NCBI GenBank assembly: GCA_019638395.1
Contig: JAHBTX010000001.1
Span: 186,001-250,000, forward strand
Reading direction: 5' to 3'
Length of the DNA stretch: 64,000 nucleotides
From: Cyclobacteriaceae bacterium
GTDB taxonomy: Bacteria > Bacteroidota > Bacteroidia > Cytophagales > Cyclobacteriaceae
In this document: in pieces, positions 29,201-38,115 of the stretch
How the letters are laid out: every line of letters begins with the position of its first letter
How positions within the stretch are numbered: position 1 is the stretch's first letter
Position numbers and translations under genes: made by a program
Notes under the pieces: model-generated
Database searches by the model: none
What the model was told of the DNA's origin: nothing
Seen by the model: only the letters and a program-made list of their open reading frames with translations

Positions 29201-29240
29201 AAAAAAAGAGGGGTATTAACCCTCTTAGCGGTCCGGACGG
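29201..29240. repeat. att direct repeat, left copy (tRNA-Asp 3' end remnant)
   Basis: These 40 bases match 38013-38053 except for one missing C. They comprise the tRNA-Asp terminator hairpin (AAGAGGGG-TATTAA-CCCTCTT) and the last bases of the tRNA (GCGGTCCGGACGG). Beyond 29240 the tRNA similarity stops. This marks the left end of the integrated element. Confidence 0.85.
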
Positions 29241-29300
29241 ACGAATCGAAACCCTCAAATGCGCTTTAAACAAGCAGATTTTCAGCTTTTTGTAACGATA

Positions 29301-29969: not shown

Positions 29970-30271
29970 AAAAGCAAAAGGCTTTTGGCGTTGTTACATT
30001 GACCTTTCAAAAAAATCGGTTTAGCTTACCTGCGCGGTGTTATCGGTGTATCGGTGTATCGGTGTATCGGTTAGGGTTTCGGTTTTGGGTAAATGACTTG
30101 TACCTATTCGCAAAAGCCCACAAACGCAAAAGCAAAAGGCTTTTGGCGTTGTTACATTGACCTTTCAAAAATCGGTTTAGCTTACCTGCGCGGTGTTATC
30201 GGTGTATCGGTGTATCGGTTAGGGTTTCGGTTTTGGGTAAATGACTTGTACCTATTCGCAAAAGCCCACAA
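29970..30271. repeat. Tandem duplication of a 144-154-bp non-coding unit
   Basis: Copy 1 (29970-30123) and copy 2 (30128-30271) are nearly identical. Each starts with the palindrome-like AAAAGCAAAAGGCTTTTGGC and holds an 8-bp microrepeat TCGGTGTA (three units in copy 1, two in copy 2). A G-rich run GGTTAGGGTTTCGGTTTTGG follows, and each ends GCAAAAGCCCACAA. The copies otherwise differ only in an A-run (seven against five). With 29909-29969 and 30272-30359 this makes a 507-bp gap with no other gene. It could be an origin of transfer or replication, or a regulatory array. Confidence 0.85.
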
Positions 30272-31760: not shown

Positions 31761-31775
31761 AGTTGATTTCTTAGA

Positions 31776-32066
31776 AGTGTTCCGGTAAAAAATGATAGCT
31801 TTTAGCTTTATCAATTCTATTAGAGCCAATTATGGCCGGAACAAAATCGGAACAAGTCGGAACAGAAAGGCCATTTTTGATAGTGATTATGCGGTTTTGC
31901 CGGAACACTTTTGTTCCGGTAATCGGAACATTTTCTGTTCCGCTAAAACCTTGAATTTTCTTTGTATTCGCATACTTTGTTCCGGTTTGTTCCGAAAGTG
32001 TTCCGGTGCTATTCATATCTAATTGATTTGATAAGGATATTTATAGCCATTTTTGACCGGAACACT
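31776..32066. repeat. 291-bp palindromic array of CGGAAC iterons, candidate origin
   Basis: Twelve copies of (C/T)CGGAAC or its complement are present. Rightward copies start at 31836, 31847, 31857, 31900, 31923 and 32057; leftward copies (GTTCCGR) start at 31779, 31913, 31937, 31979, 31989 and 32000. Every left copy has a mirror-image right copy about base 31921 with no length change. The outer arms AGTGTTCCGGT (31776-31786) and ACCGGAACACT (32056-32066) are exact inverts. The triplets are spaced 10-11 bp, one helical turn. The intervening DNA is AT-rich. It lies between the DnaB-N-like and DUF3987 genes, so origin function is likely. Confidence 0.85.
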
Positions 32067-32069
32067 TTT

Positions 32070-33524
32070 CTATTTTGCATAAGAGCCAAAAACCCGTGGA
32101 TACTCTTTAATCCACCGTTCCACTTGCCGCCTCGCTTTAACCTTATGAGAATCGGATTTACTGCCATAGAGCATCTCGCCAATTTCTGAATTGGACTTGC
32201 CTCGCTTCAACATGAAGGCTGTAGTCAGTACTTCAGGTGGTGCGCTTAAACTCTTTTGTACCAGGTCGTAAACTTCATTAGCGCTATCATAGAAGTAATC
32301 GGCAAGCTCTAAAGCTCTTATCATAGTAGATACCAGAATTAATTCCTGATGCTTAAAAGCAATATGAAAATCTCCGCCATAGTCCTGGTCAAAAGTCTTA
32401 TCTGACAGATGCAGTATCCCGGCAAACCGATATGCATATTCTGATACCTTGCCTAAAATACCAGCTTTGATATTTTTTTCTGTTGAATCATCAATCTGGT
32501 TAATGACTTTTATTTTTTCACGCCTCCATTGGTCAAGAAGCTTTTTGGCCGGAGCATCGACTTTACAATAACGTCCTTCAGTTACGTCAAAGACCTGAAG
32601 GTCTTTGTAAAGTAGAATAATAGTACGCTCGTGTAATTCAGTCCACTCTGCTGGCATAACAAAATCGCTTTCACGTTGCGATATCTGGTCTTCCTCTGGA
32701 ACTGCGAATAGCATTCGGAATACGAAGCCAGTAGTATCTCTATCTTTTGCGAAAATTTTTGTAAGCAGGGCGTACTGAGATTTGCCGATAACGTTCACAA
32801 AAGGACGTTCGATTACGAATTTATCTTTACCAGAACGAATGCCGCTGTATGGCGTACAGTTCCAAGCGGATATCCAAAATTGTTCGTCCGTTGATTCCTT
32901 TTTGGATATCTGATTCATTCCATTAATCCATTCAAGTAATTCATCAGAATGCTTACACACACCTTTAGGATTATCAGGTAAAATTGTTCTTACTAATGTT
33001 GGGATATGTGAATCGCGATAGATTACTGTTTCCATTCTTTCTTGATTCATTTTTTCTCTTGATAACCCTTTTGTTTTTTCTTTCCAATCAAAGTCAAATT
33101 CAGATTGAATCTTAAAAAGAGGCGCATAGATTTTATTGATTGAAACGGTGCCACCGGATGACGAAATACCACAAAGACAACCCCAGACAGGCAGGTAAAT
33201 AAAATCATCATTACCACTATCTATTTTGAAGGCCGTTCCAATTGCAGTTGAGTAAGCACTCAGTAACGTTGTTCCAATGTATGAAGCTGGCAGATCGTAG
33301 CCTTTGTTAAGTGAATCCAGAAACGGTTTTATTTTTGGATTAAATACATGCAACGGGAACACATTGGTACTTTGTCTGCGTATAACTTCGGATTTCAATT
33401 GTTCATTCGAGAACGTGGATAATCCTTCTGATTTTAAAAACTTTGCAAATGACATACCGCTTTCGTTTTTAGGAATCAGAACGTTAGCTGTCTTTGCTGG
33501 GCTTTGTATGTTCGTATCAACCAC
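32070..33524 (-). CDS. DUF3987-family replication protein
   Basis: The 484-residue protein matches the DUF3987 group of phage and island proteins related to primase-helicases: LPASYIGTTLLSAYSTAIG, then YLPVWGCLCGISSSGG, then FVNVIGKSQYALLTKIFAKDRDTTGFVFRMLFAVPE and a helical C terminus. The place of the P-loop reads GISSSGGTVS and lacks the usual G-K-(S/T), so ATP hydrolysis is doubtful or uses another residue. The C-terminal part (MLKRGKSNSEIGEMLYGSKSDSHKVKARRQVERWIKEY) looks like a winged helix suited to binding the iterons just downstream of the gene. Confidence 0.8.
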   Translation of the reverse strand: MVDTNIQSPAKTANVLIPKNESGMSFAKFLKSEGLSTFSNEQLKSEVIRRQSTNVFPLHVFNPKIKPFLDSLNKGYDLPASYIGTTLLSAYSTAIGTAFKIDSGNDDFIYLPVWGCLCGISSSGGTVSINKIYAPLFKIQSEFDFDWKEKTKGLSREKMNQERMETVIYRDSHIPTLVRTILPDNPKGVCKHSDELLEWINGMNQISKKESTDEQFWISAWNCTPYSGIRSGKDKFVIERPFVNVIGKSQYALLTKIFAKDRDTTGFVFRMLFAVPEEDQISQRESDFVMPAEWTELHERTIILLYKDLQVFDVTEGRYCKVDAPAKKLLDQWRREKIKVINQIDDSTEKNIKAGILGKVSEYAYRFAGILHLSDKTFDQDYGGDFHIAFKHQELILVSTMIRALELADYFYDSANEVYDLVQKSLSAPPEVLTTAFMLKRGKSNSEIGEMLYGSKSDSHKVKARRQVERWIKEYPRVFGSYAK

Positions 33525-34083: not shown

Positions 34084-34260
34084 TTAAGCTTCTGCGGGTT
34101 GGGCAATTTTTTCAAACTCAGTAAGGCTCAGGTAAACGGCAGAATTAATTCGATATCGCTTCAAGCGACCTTCTTGCAATAGCTTTTTTAGAAATGAGAT
34201 TGATGCTCCGGTTTTTATTGAAGCAGCTTTCACGGTCATTAATTGTTTGTTGGTTTCCAT
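34084..34260 (-). CDS. Excisionase-like DNA-binding protein
   Basis: The 58-residue product METNKQLMTVKAASIKTGAS then SFLKKLLQEGRLKRYRINSAVYLSLTEFEKIA has the winged-helix pattern of the MerR/excisionase helix-turn-helix group: a helix-turn-helix, a basic wing (GRLKRYRI), and a last helix. It is likely a recombination directionality factor or regulator for the integrase at 36700-37923. The ATG at 34260 is preferred; the frame is open 11 codons further up. Confidence 0.65.
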   Translation of the reverse strand: METNKQLMTVKAASIKTGASISFLKKLLQEGRLKRYRINSAVYLSLTEFEKIAQPAEA

Positions 34261-34579: not shown

Positions 34580-34613
34580 TTGTAGATTGGTTTTGCAACA
34601 AATCAAATCTACT

Positions 34614-35825
34614 ATGGCTAAAAGTACTCACTTTTTTGGGCAATCTGTTTTCGGACAGCTCATTGAACTTATTGATCCTACGGTGATATCGCAATCACTG
34701 AGGCAAGTAAAAGCGGACAGATACTACAAGCGATTTCAGACCTGGGATCACTTGGTCAGCATGCTTTTCGGAGTGCTGGCACATTGCACCTCTCTTCGTG
34801 AGATTTGCGGAGCAATGATGGGTTTAAAAGGTAAATTAGAACACTTTGGCCTGCAACGCGTGCCCCATCGCAGCACACTGAGTGATGCCAACAGGAAAAG
34901 GTCGTCCGAAGTTTTCGGATTGATCTACTATGGATTGGTAAGGCGTTACCGTTCATTTTTATCGGACAGCCGGTTTGCTCTTGCAGCAGGAAAAAAACTG
35001 GTTGTCATCGACTCCACAACCATATCTTTATTCAAAGATATTTTGAAATGTCTGGGACGCAGACCTTCATCAGGAAAGAGCAAGGGCGGCATTAAAGTAC
35101 ATGCCGAAATGGTTTTGGAGGAACAGCTTCCGCGCCTGATCTGGTATGGCCCATCGGCCAGCAATGACGTGTCCTTCGTTCAGAAGAGGGATTTTTTCAA
35201 AGAGAACATATATATCTTCGACAGAGGCTACATAGATTATAGTTTCTATGAGCGACTAACCAAGGATCAGGTTGGCTTTGTCACTCGCCTAAAAGATTAC
35301 GCCACTTACAGACCCAAAGAAGAGTTTGATATTGAGGACAACGCTCCTAATGAACTGCTGAAGGATGAACGTATTGAACTTCCTATATATGAAAAGAAAC
35401 AAGAAGTAAGAACAATTTCTTTGAGAATGATTGTTTGGTGGGATGATACAAACCAAAGAAGGTTTACGTTCCTCACTAACCTGTTCTCACTAAAAGCTGA
35501 GCAGATTGCCATGATCTACAAACAACGATGGCAGATAGAATTACTTTTTAAACAACTCAAGCAAAACTTCCCATTGAAATACTTTCTGGGAGACAACGAG
35601 AACGCCATAAGCATTCAGATATGGTGCGCACTAATTGCTAACCTATTGTTGACAGTGGTGAAGAAACAACTATCGCGAAAGACAGCTTTCTCATGTATTG
35701 CAAGCTATGTCAGGGTAAATCTGATTAACTACATTCATCTCATAAGATTCCTGAATAATCCTGAAAAAGATTGGACGTTGGAACTTGTCACAAATAAACA
35801 GCAGTCGTTGTTTTCCACCGGGTAG
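34614..35825 (+). CDS. IS4-type DDE transposase
   Basis: The 403-residue protein starts MAKSTHFFGQSVFGQLIELID (ATG at 34614; a frame ATG at 34587 lies upstream, partly in the terminator). It has an N-terminal DUF4372-like region and RFQTWDHLVSMLFGVLAHCTSLREIC. The DDE core has the first Asp in VVIDSTTISL, the second in IYIFDRGYIDY, and the Y-(2)-R-(3)-E-(6)-K signature YKQRWQIELLFKQLKQ with the catalytic Glu. All three acidic residues are present. Confidence 0.95.
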   Translation: MAKSTHFFGQSVFGQLIELIDPTVISQSLRQVKADRYYKRFQTWDHLVSMLFGVLAHCTSLREICGAMMGLKGKLEHFGLQRVPHRSTLSDANRKRSSEVFGLIYYGLVRRYRSFLSDSRFALAAGKKLVVIDSTTISLFKDILKCLGRRPSSGKSKGGIKVHAEMVLEEQLPRLIWYGPSASNDVSFVQKRDFFKENIYIFDRGYIDYSFYERLTKDQVGFVTRLKDYATYRPKEEFDIEDNAPNELLKDERIELPIYEKKQEVRTISLRMIVWWDDTNQRRFTFLTNLFSLKAEQIAMIYKQRWQIELLFKQLKQNFPLKYFLGDNENAISIQIWCALIANLLLTVVKKQLSRKTAFSCIASYVRVNLINYIHLIRFLNNPEKDWTLELVTNKQQSLFSTG

Positions 35826-35887: not shown

Positions 35888-36703
35888 TTATTTTAAATTC
35901 TCCGGACAGTAGTGTTTAGGAATGTCGGTAAAGCCAAGATTATTCAGTAAAAGAAATAACTGACCTGAGGCTTGCGGGCTATCGTTACCCTTACCTTTTC
36001 GGATAAAATTTCCGTCTAAATCAAACCATGGATCCTTTTTTGAAAGTTCCTCAATTACGAGGTTGTAAATTTTTTCATCTTTAAACAGGCTTTTGAATCG
36101 AATTGCACCTTCGCTATTTGGAGTTACATTATTAATAAAATTTTCAATCCATAACTTGATTGAATCCATAAAATCTTTTACCAACTCACCGGAACCGGCT
36201 TGGAGTGATAGAAGAAATGACTTGTAACTTTTGAAGTCATTATTGAAATGTTCCTTCAAATGGAATTCAAGAAAATCTTGCAATCTTTCCTTAGCCCCAA
36301 TCCTATTTTTATGATGCCATACGCGATCATCCTTTGTTACCTGAATTAGTCTGAAGGGAAAAAGTTTTGAAAAGTAGCCAGGATACTCACTTTGAGTTAC
36401 CAGAATGGGCTGGTTAAAATTTGTTCCGAGTGGCTCATTATCTTTATCGTCACTATATTTCCAACCACCAATACCAAAATAGAACCCTTTACGCTGCATA
36501 TCTCTGATTTGAGATTCTACCGCGTAGTGCGGGTTAGTAATAGGTTCAGTTCGAAGTTCACTCAGTTTTTTCCATTCCCCTTTATCGCGTAGCAGATCGC
36601 CCATGATTGGAAATAGTCTAAGTCTCTCCGATTCCATGAGAACGTGGGCATCATGCCAAAGCATATCCAACGTAATAGAAAGATATTCTTCAACTGTCCT
36701 CAT
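35888..36703 (-). CDS. Element protein of unknown function, C terminus altered by IS insertion
   Basis: The 271-residue soluble protein (VEEYLSITLDMLWHDAHVLM to PWFDLDGNFIRKGKGNDSPQ) is not recognised. It overlaps the integrase gene by 4 bp, so both are expressed together. The last eight residues (HYCPENLK) and the stop come from the insertion sequence; the original protein ran about 31 residues further (total about 294). Mobile-element neighbours of Bacteroidota integrases often include such helical proteins of unknown role. Confidence 0.7.
   Translation of the reverse strand: MRTVEEYLSITLDMLWHDAHVLMESERLRLFPIMGDLLRDKGEWKKLSELRTEPITNPHYAVESQIRDMQRKGFYFGIGGWKYSDDKDNEPLGTNFNQPILVTQSEYPGYFSKLFPFRLIQVTKDDRVWHHKNRIGAKERLQDFLEFHLKEHFNNDFKSYKSFLLSLQAGSGELVKDFMDSIKLWIENFINNVTPNSEGAIRFKSLFKDEKIYNLVIEELSKKDPWFDLDGNFIRKGKGNDSPQASGQLFLLLNNLGFTDIPKHYCPENLK
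35915..35923. repeat. 9-bp target-site duplication, right copy
   Basis: Second copy of TTTAGGAAT, adjoining the right inverted repeat of the insertion sequence. Confidence 0.9.
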
Positions 36704-37923
36704 AAGCTAATCTTAGTTTTATCTGATTCCATTTTTACAATCGCTGATTCCAATGGAAGCTTATAGTAGTGGTTTAAAACTGTCTTCAGATCTTTACCAA
36801 CAATTGCCGCAACTTCTGCCGGACTTAAGCCAAACCACTGTGGTGCAAGCGAAATAAACGTTTTACCGGCAGTGTGGGAGGTTGTCAATTTATGTTTGGG
36901 CTGTTCTTTGTCTTCATCGCGGCCGGCCACATTAACGCGGATTGTTAGCTTACTATCAATACCTGCCTTTTCGCATACTGTTTTGATGGCCCGGTTAAGT
37001 ACCTGTTCCGTAATCCTTGGGGACCTATTGCCGTGAGCTTCTATAATCTTCCGGGCTTTGGTCAGTAATGGAATGGTAACTTCTTTATCATTCTTTTGCA
37101 AGGTCATGCGAATTTGGCCATTGATTATACGGGTTTCGTTCACCCGTTTCAAATCACTTATCCGTAAGCCGGTATAAACTCCCAGCAAAAACATATCCTT
37201 TGCCTTTTGCAATTCAGAACTATCGCTTACGTCAACTTCCTCCAGTTGTTCAACTTCTTTATTCGATAGGGCTATGATTTCCTTTTTACTGGTACGAATC
37301 TTAATGGAGTTTACATTGTAGTCCAATGTCTTCAGAAACCAACGTAGATGTTTCATTCGCTTGCCGTGCGTACTATTGGCAAGCTTTCGTTTCTCCTGAA
37401 GGTAACGCTCGTAGGCAGTTATAATTGATTCGTTTAGGTCCCCCTTTTCAATACCTCCGTAACCTGCTTTGGTTAAGAACTCAAGAAATTGTTTCATGGA
37501 TTCCCGCACGGCCTTTTGCGTAGAGGGTTCGTAATGGAAAAGACTATTTTCCATCCAGTCGTTGGCCAGGCTCTTAATTGATTTGTTGTTTGCCTTTTGC
37601 TTTTTGTCACTATCCAGCTTCTTTGTAACCCGTTCAGCTTCAAACGTGTTGAACTCTTGCTTTACAGTAAAAGGCGTTACCATTTCCTCACGGGCTTCTA
37701 ACCGTGTGATTGCTTTGCCTATTTTGGATTTAACATCGTTGATTGCTTTGGCCACATCACCCCGGTGATCTTTAGGAAATTGATCTGAAGGGCTCCAGTC
37801 GCTTTTACGAATCCTTTGGCCTGTTGAGATCAACTCCGCCTGGTCTTTGAAGTAAAGGGCAACATATATCAACCCTTGATTGCCTTGACCTGCTTTCTTT
37901 TTTAGAAGGAATCTGATCTTCAT
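36700..37923 (-). CDS. Tyrosine recombinase (integrase) with altered active site
   Basis: The 407-residue protein has the N-terminal arm-binding part typical of Bacteroidota integrases (about 1-90), a SAM-like core-binding domain (about 112-215) and a catalytic domain. Arg254 (YTGLRISDL) and a terminal Tyr (HYYKL, 386/387) are in place. Two other residues are not: the HxxR block reads HTAGKTF (His350, Gly353 where Arg is expected, Lys354), and the third-motif His is Lys377 (VGKDLKTV). It lies 118 bp from the tRNA-Asp gene it presumably targets. Confidence 0.88.
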   Translation of the reverse strand: MKIRFLLKKKAGQGNQGLIYVALYFKDQAELISTGQRIRKSDWSPSDQFPKDHRGDVAKAINDVKSKIGKAITRLEAREEMVTPFTVKQEFNTFEAERVTKKLDSDKKQKANNKSIKSLANDWMENSLFHYEPSTQKAVRESMKQFLEFLTKAGYGGIEKGDLNESIITAYERYLQEKRKLANSTHGKRMKHLRWFLKTLDYNVNSIKIRTSKKEIIALSNKEVEQLEEVDVSDSSELQKAKDMFLLGVYTGLRISDLKRVNETRIINGQIRMTLQKNDKEVTIPLLTKARKIIEAHGNRSPRITEQVLNRAIKTVCEKAGIDSKLTIRVNVAGRDEDKEQPKHKLTTSHTAGKTFISLAPQWFGLSPAEVAAIVGKDLKTVLNHYYKLPLESAIVKMESDKTKISL

Positions 37924-38011: not shown

Positions 38012-38039
38012 AAAAAAAAGAGGGGTATTAACCCCTCTT
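38012..38039 (-). terminator. tRNA-Asp terminator (right att copy)
   Basis: On the minus strand AAGAGGGG-TTAATA-CCCCTCTT followed by six further T residues, directly after the tRNA. It forms part of the att direct repeat. Confidence 0.85.
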
Positions 38040-38053
38040 AGCGGTCCGGACGG
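38013..38053. repeat. att direct repeat, right copy
   Basis: 41 bases shared with 29201-29240 (one extra C). It covers the tRNA terminator and the 3' end of the tRNA-Asp gene, which stays intact after integration. Confidence 0.85.
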
Positions 38054-38115
38054 GACTCGAACCCGCGACCTCCTGCGTGACAGGCAGGCATTCTAACCAG
38101 CTGAACTACCGGACC
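38042..38115 (-). tRNA. tRNA-Asp (GTC)
   Basis: The 74-base gene runs from G at 38115 (acceptor GGTCCGG) to the discriminator G at 38042. The anticodon loop CTGTCAC gives anticodon GTC. The T-arm reads GCGGGTTCGAGTCCCGT and the acceptor closes CCGGACC. CCA is not encoded. It is the integration target of the adjacent element. Confidence 0.97.

Follow-up and report, generated by a model that had tools for sequence, protein, structure and literature searches.

The closest described systems are initiators or helicases of mobile elements, most of them acting on short repeats. According to the published account, as far as it is cited here, SaPI Rep is the initiator helicase of an integrative element; its C-terminal domain reads a short-repeat origin directly downstream, where binding by two hexamers is presumed (PMC7581432). 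The SCCmec helicase Cch2 is described there as using its C-terminal domain, too, to bind and unwind repeats that lie immediately 3' of the gene encoding it. The putative Cch2 origin has three iterons (AAGTG) arranged as direct repeats, and inverted repeats are dispensable for binding (PMC7581432). The Vibrio satellite PLE encodes the initiator RepA, which binds repeats needed for replication and is assigned in the cited description to the RepA_N family, without predicted helicase activity (PMC7145576). DUF3987 itself is presented as the predicted helicase of mobile-element replication, which replaces MCM, RepA or DnaB in primase-helicases (PMC5862659).

Here we describe a mirror-symmetric repeat array next to a DUF3987 gene in a stretch of 64,000 nucleotides from a Cyclobacteriaceae genome (the window). 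From comparison of related loci, we consider it very probable that a small integrative element starts its replication at this array, and we propose the C-terminal HTH-like domain of the DUF3987 protein as the part that binds it. The element is an island of about 8.8 kb inserted in tRNA-Asp, with a duplicate of the 3' end of that gene at its other boundary; the ends were matched by eye (Table 1). It comprises a tyrosine integrase, small proteins, DUF3987, the array, a protein with a DnaB N-terminal domain (DnaB-N), DUF5618 and an inserted IS, and no structural gene was recognised among the genes scanned with Pfam and PHROG. Related islands with the same chromosomal neighbours are found at L033 and L035, which are MAGs labelled Cyclobacteriaceae (L numbers denote the loci compared). 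In the L033 island, an ORF matching the DUF4372-type transposase of the window (34587-35825) was not seen. Positions 29980-30270 hold a direct duplication of about 130 bp with short runs of TATCGGTG repeats inside it.

Table 1. Positions of the island features and of the elements of the array, in window coordinates.
Feature	Position	Strand	Basis or remark
Left end repeat, copy of tRNA-Asp 3' end	29203..29250 (approx.)		By-eye comparison
DnaB N-terminal-domain protein, 235 aa	31053..31760	-	PF00772, E 2.3e-12; phrog_19, E 6.9e-12
Mirror-symmetric array, candidate origin	31775..32067		12 CGGAAC/GTTCCG sites, axis 31921
Left outermost CGGAAC-type site	31779..31784	-	
Direct-site triplet (31837, 31848, 31858)	31837..31863	+	Spacing 11 + 10 bp
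Array centre, two inverted pairs (31901+/31913-, 31924+/31937-)	31901..31942		Order + - + -, also in relatives
Mirror triplet (31979, 31989, 32000)	31979..32005	-	Spacing 10 + 11 bp
Right outermost CGGAAC-type site	32058..32063	+	
DUF3987 protein (484 aa), candidate initiator helicase	32070..33524	-	PF13148, E 1.1e-23; phrog_2373 (DNA helicase), E 2.3e-21
C-terminal HTH-like domain, about aa 428-484, putative iteron reader	32073..32243	-	Alignment; HTH by eye
Second conserved loop GKSQ, aa 247-250, Lys248	32775..32786	-	G, S or T in 62/62 other aligned proteins
Degenerate Walker A GISSSGGT, aa 119-126, Gly125 in place of lysine	33147..33170	-	
112-aa protein, function unassigned, also in L021, L033 and L035	33716..34054	-	
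Small protein, excisionase-like	34084..34257	-	By eye; no PHROG match
IS transposase inside the island (DDE_Tnp_1 with DUF4372)	34587..35825	+	
Island tyrosine integrase	36700..37923	-	
tRNA-Asp (38041-38115) and right end repeat	38014..38115	-	

The array lies 3 bp from the end of the DUF3987 gene. An initial annotation of this DNA had reported a palindrome of twelve CGGAAC motifs here, and that observation was essentially right. All twelve are exact hexamers, compared with a mean of 0.14 and a maximum of 3 copies in 5000 dinucleotide shuffles of the 291 bp. By count of mirrored exact 6-mers the array scores twelve; elsewhere in the window, 122 of 123 1-kb tiles contain at most two and one contains four. 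The outer triplets phased by 10-11 bp and the two inverted pairs at the centre are also as first reported. The mirror rule, which pairs a site at x with one at 63842-x, is exact for ten of the twelve sites, or five of the six pairs; the accompanying statement that the array has no insertions or deletions was not quite right, because the pair 31901/31937 is off by one base. The end arms are exact inverts as claimed, with a measured length of 12 bp instead of 11, inside a 20-nt pair (31775-31794 and 32048-32067) that is 95% complementary.

The DNA between the motifs is less regular. Across the axis 44 of 96 non-motif positions pair (46%), against a mean of 29% (sd 6%, maximum 47.5%) when other axes are taken for comparison. 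The inverted similarity that had been proposed for these spacers is present in the distal zone (29/50), but between 31864 and 31900 it is near background (11/34), so that spacer symmetry is weak and uneven. Ten exactly mirrored sites out of twelve, together with mostly asymmetric spacers, rule out a perfect palindrome. AT content is 64% in the array and 58% in the locus; this enrichment is small, and the AT-rich melt zone of the initial annotation is weakly indicated, as a moderate rise.

For the comparison with relatives, DUF3987 homologues were taken from the genome's own family (13 of 295 genomes at E <= 1e-10), order (18 of 390) and class (14 of 395, both at E <= 1e-30), with the own genome counted in each, and from nine named genome contigs, 14 viral contigs, eight plasmid records and three phage records. 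The close subfamily has 39-92% identity to the window protein and comprises 23 loci after dropping duplicate contigs; near-identical loci (L051-L053; L037 and L048) are still among them. We scanned the kilobase on either side of the DUF3987 gene for any mirrored 6-mer, with a threshold of at least four copies. In the close subfamily this threshold was reached in 22 of 23 3' flanks (range 4-12), the exception being L036, whose array is by eye degenerate at best, and in none of the 23 5' flanks; among shuffled 3' flanks it was reached in 5 of 2800. The array sits directly 3' of the proposed initiator helicase gene, the position that the origin has relative to SaPI Rep and Cch2. When all loci are counted, with intermediate and distant homologues and two duplicate contigs included, the numbers are 45 of 69 for the 3' and 0 of 71 for the 5' flanks, with the mirrored array absent at this threshold from 24 of the 69. 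Beyond the close subfamily, 21 of 44 loci have it, made up of four of five intermediate loci (L065-L069, with none at L068) and 17 of 39 distant ones. A separate scan by site geometry missed the arrays of L037, L048 and L049 (Pedobacter-type) and of L039, which were found by counting repeated 6-mers. Equivalent arrays 3' of homologous helicase genes occur in islands, a prophage, viral contigs and plasmids, and this lends strong comparative support to the origin reading that had already been put forward. In one of these loci, the Pedobacter gandavensis element, we also observed a reverse transcriptase (L041:12343-13323; phrog_1423, E 8e-127) near a head maturation protease.

Two circular plasmids extend the comparison. 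Plasmid p3 of Priestia megaterium (16.9 kb) carries a DUF3987 gene (E 2.6e-66) followed closely on its 3' side by eight copies of GTAGAC, of which four are mirrored. The 15 listed features of the plasmid include none named a Rep protein; Pfam was run on eight of them. Salinibacter pSR11 (11.5 kb) encodes a Toprim-DUF3987 fusion, and an inverted TTGCA cluster was seen by eye just 3' of its gene. As far as their sequences go, both plasmids fit an origin beside the replication gene.

The array might instead be an operator or autoregulatory site, at which an element protein binds the words and controls the replication operon, with replication starting elsewhere. The position of the array just upstream of the DnaB-N gene in the window clade would suit this, as would small stand-alone copies of the C-terminal domain, which could be repressors. 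But the genes that follow the array vary between loci and are mostly not DnaB-N, arrays are tied to the initiator gene in plasmids too, and 7-12 exact sites over about 300 bp in a fixed mirrored geometry are far beyond what an operator needs. We therefore regard an operator in place of an origin as unlikely, although an operator role may hold alongside the origin role.

One of the more striking properties of these arrays is that their geometry is kept while their words differ. Counted from the first central site, partner sites stand at about +11, +24 and +35, forward sites at about -63 and -53, and reverse sites at about +78 to +90 and +88 to +101. The words are phased on the helix, with 10-11 bp in the triplets and about 11-13 bp between central partners in relatives. 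CGGAACA is used in the window, L033 and L035, CGTAACA in L034, L042 and L051-L053, AGTAACA in L043, CGGGACA in L021 and L054, and ACGGACG in L022. Other loci have TCCGACA (L044), TGTGCCA (L038), TGTTGA (L046), CGTTCCA (L037, L041, L048, L049, L050 and L055) or CGTTTCA (L039). Each array holds 7-12 exact copies, and its first site lies 3-781 bp past the DUF3987 gene. The geometry served to assign the word registers of L022, L038, L044, L046, L065-L067 and L069 manually. GTCAAC or GTCAGG is the word in the intermediate subfamily, where the L069 array has a + - - + + - centre. Inverted clusters of another, simpler kind occur with distant homologues, and many are built of TGCA-like words. In the sequences compared, spacing and the central double inverted pair are thus kept and the word itself is not conserved. 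The initial annotation had named absence of the motif array from related elements with conserved replication genes as an observation that would count against it; a mirrored array is present in 22 of the 23 close loci, but the motif CGGAAC is not conserved, and such changing words at fixed geometry were unforeseen.

The array of L034 is mixed: most of its words are CGTAAC, and two CGGAAC occupy mirrored mid-triplet positions. Perhaps a word change has been caught half-way, or this is a position-specific variant. The mirrored CGGAAC words of L034 and the weak distal spacer symmetry are also what would be expected if the array were a functionless relic of an inverted duplication, kept by exchange between its arms. 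The asymmetric spacers near the centre and a geometry that is conserved across loci with different words speak against such a relic, which we consider the least credible of the explanations and highly improbable.

Repeat arrays also serve in partition, as centromere-like sites, and in packaging, and the array could be a site of this type within the replication module. Against this, a general gene-family comparison of 22 loci finds only DUF3987 (22/22, by selection) and DnaB-N (20/22) conserved with the array, and we judge a partition or packaging site to be very unlikely. The same comparison distinguishes between the two conserved genes. DnaB-N was not found in L051 and L053, it is encoded 5' of DUF3987 in 16 of the 22 loci, and it lies 3' of the array only in the window, L033, L034 and L035. 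The location between the two replication genes, as first described, is therefore correct for the window but not general, and since the position of DnaB-N varies, the array goes with DUF3987; that it belongs to DnaB-N is ruled out.

The tail of the DUF3987 protein is the candidate reader of the words, and its HTH look, judged by eye, is clearest in L065-L069. Stand-alone proteins that resemble only this tail are encoded in L037, L048 and L049 (135-136 aa), between DUF3987 and the array, and by an upstream ORF in L050 (66 aa), with best E-values of 5e-14 to 1e-12. Copies in four loci support a discrete DNA-binding module, and it is possible that these proteins are origin-binding regulators. Co-variation between protein and motif is negative to weak. 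With the core controlled for, the partial Mantel correlation between motif and C-terminal domain was -0.005 (p 0.51) in 21 representatives and 0.043 (p 0.34) in 18, and C-terminal columns were not enriched for co-variation with the word (p 0.59). The best single column is that of Lys461 in the putative recognition helix (alignment column 554), which is K in all 13 representatives with a CG-initial word and differs in four of the five with other words, K being kept only in L038; its raw Fisher p of 0.0016 (rank 1 of 183) is post hoc and becomes about 0.3 after correction.

The assignment of the window protein to DUF3987 rests on a PF13148 match of 84.5 bits, compared with a curated cut-off of 27, and on the overall alignment, and by these it holds despite the loss of the Walker lysine. 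Searches against solved structures gave marginal matches for the DUF3987 profile (best E 0.48) and a weak match of DnaB-N to DnaB 2q6t (E 0.027), and a domain scan found no helicase ATPase domain in the 235-aa DnaB-N protein. The Walker A lysine expected of the aligned DUF3987 proteins is absent from the window protein. It is present in 62 of the 66 proteins aligned, together with G, S or T in the loop N(V/I)xGxxQ, and the remaining four (window, L033, L034 and L035) show the reciprocal exchange: glycine replaces the Walker A lysine, and the loop residue is lysine. These are the same four loci in which the DnaB-N gene has moved. Among 395 genomes across the phylum, no more members of this clade were found beyond the own genome at E <= 1e-60. 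With a dN/dS of 0.092 between the window and L033 (dN 0.036, dS 0.393), the gene is not decaying and is under purifying selection. One possibility is that the proteins of the window clade have stopped hydrolysing ATP and work with another motor. The exchange was unexpected and is the most surprising by-product of this analysis; if the lysine has truly been relocated, this P-loop ATPase would be one of the rare ones in which the key catalytic residue has moved. WNK kinases are a comparison case for a relocated catalytic lysine.

A second palindrome, TGATWATCA, accompanies many of the arrays. If one mismatch is allowed, the 520 bp around the axis hold on average 1.62 copies in 21 representatives, where the remainder of the loci would predict 0.24. 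Most copies stand about +-46, +36 or +-112 from the axis, and flanking TAACT...AGTTA often extends them. It is found in the arrays of L021, L022, L043, L051, L054, L065, L067 and others, and is absent in five of the 21 representatives, including the window, where it is absent or degenerate. Because TGATWATCA varies less than the iteron word does, it may be the site of a conserved protein, perhaps from the host. GC skew was uninformative as evidence for an origin, being higher on the right side in 6 of 10 loci.

Taken as an origin with the adjoining DUF3987 protein as its initiator, the array suggests the following model. The C-terminal HTH-like domain would bind the repeated words as iterons, and the hexameric ATPase core would open and unwind the DNA. 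The mirror layout may represent two opposed half-origins of six words each, either of which would take one hexamer; if helicases were loaded both ways, replication would be bidirectional. The separate DnaB-N protein could provide the link between the DUF3987 helicase and the primase or replisome of the host. What the sequences themselves show is the array, its recurrence 3' of DUF3987 homologues, a fixed geometry with changing words, and a mobile C-terminal domain. Joining all parts, namely a two-part helicase system of an origin-binding DUF3987 motor and DnaB-N, a 6+6-site origin of fixed geometry, a word repeatedly rewritten in all copies together with its reader, and a Walker A lysine relocated under purifying selection in the window clade, gives a picture that we put forward as tentative and, as a whole, rather doubtful.

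DUF3987, which in Pfam is only of 'unknown function', would gain from the origin reading a concrete and testable role as an initiator of replication whose origin lies immediately 3' of its gene. The pairing of DUF3987 and array spans Bacteroidota elements and at least one Bacillota plasmid, and the arrays could provide a simple signature for the origins of uncharacterised phages, islands and plasmids. With its fixed layout and changing word, the family lends itself, as a natural experiment, to the study of how the specificity of an initiator and that of its dozen sites may shift together. We found no description of a mirrored 12-site array with changing words in the literature on DUF3987, iterons, satellites, SaPI, integrative elements and Bacteroidetes, of which few subscription papers were covered, and a search that included the relocated Walker lysine also gave nothing describing this array.

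Compared with the known systems, the element resembles the PLE satellite in pairing a candidate initiator of its own with repeats, but PLE RepA belongs to another family (RepA_N) and its repeats have another layout. It shares with the archaeo-eukaryotic primase fusions the Pfam domain and the predicted helicase; unlike in those fusions, for which the cited passages mention no origin, DUF3987 stands alone here with a C-terminal HTH-like domain. The likeness to Cch2, by layout and described function, lies in repeats just downstream of a helicase gene, although Cch2 has three direct iterons and our array has 12 sites in mirror symmetry. By the same measures of layout and described function the system, with a putative initiator helicase and origin-like repeats directly 3' of its gene, is like SaPI Rep. 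What sets it apart from SaPI Rep as described is the DnaB-N partner, the variable word and the mirrored layout of 12 sites around two central inverted pairs.
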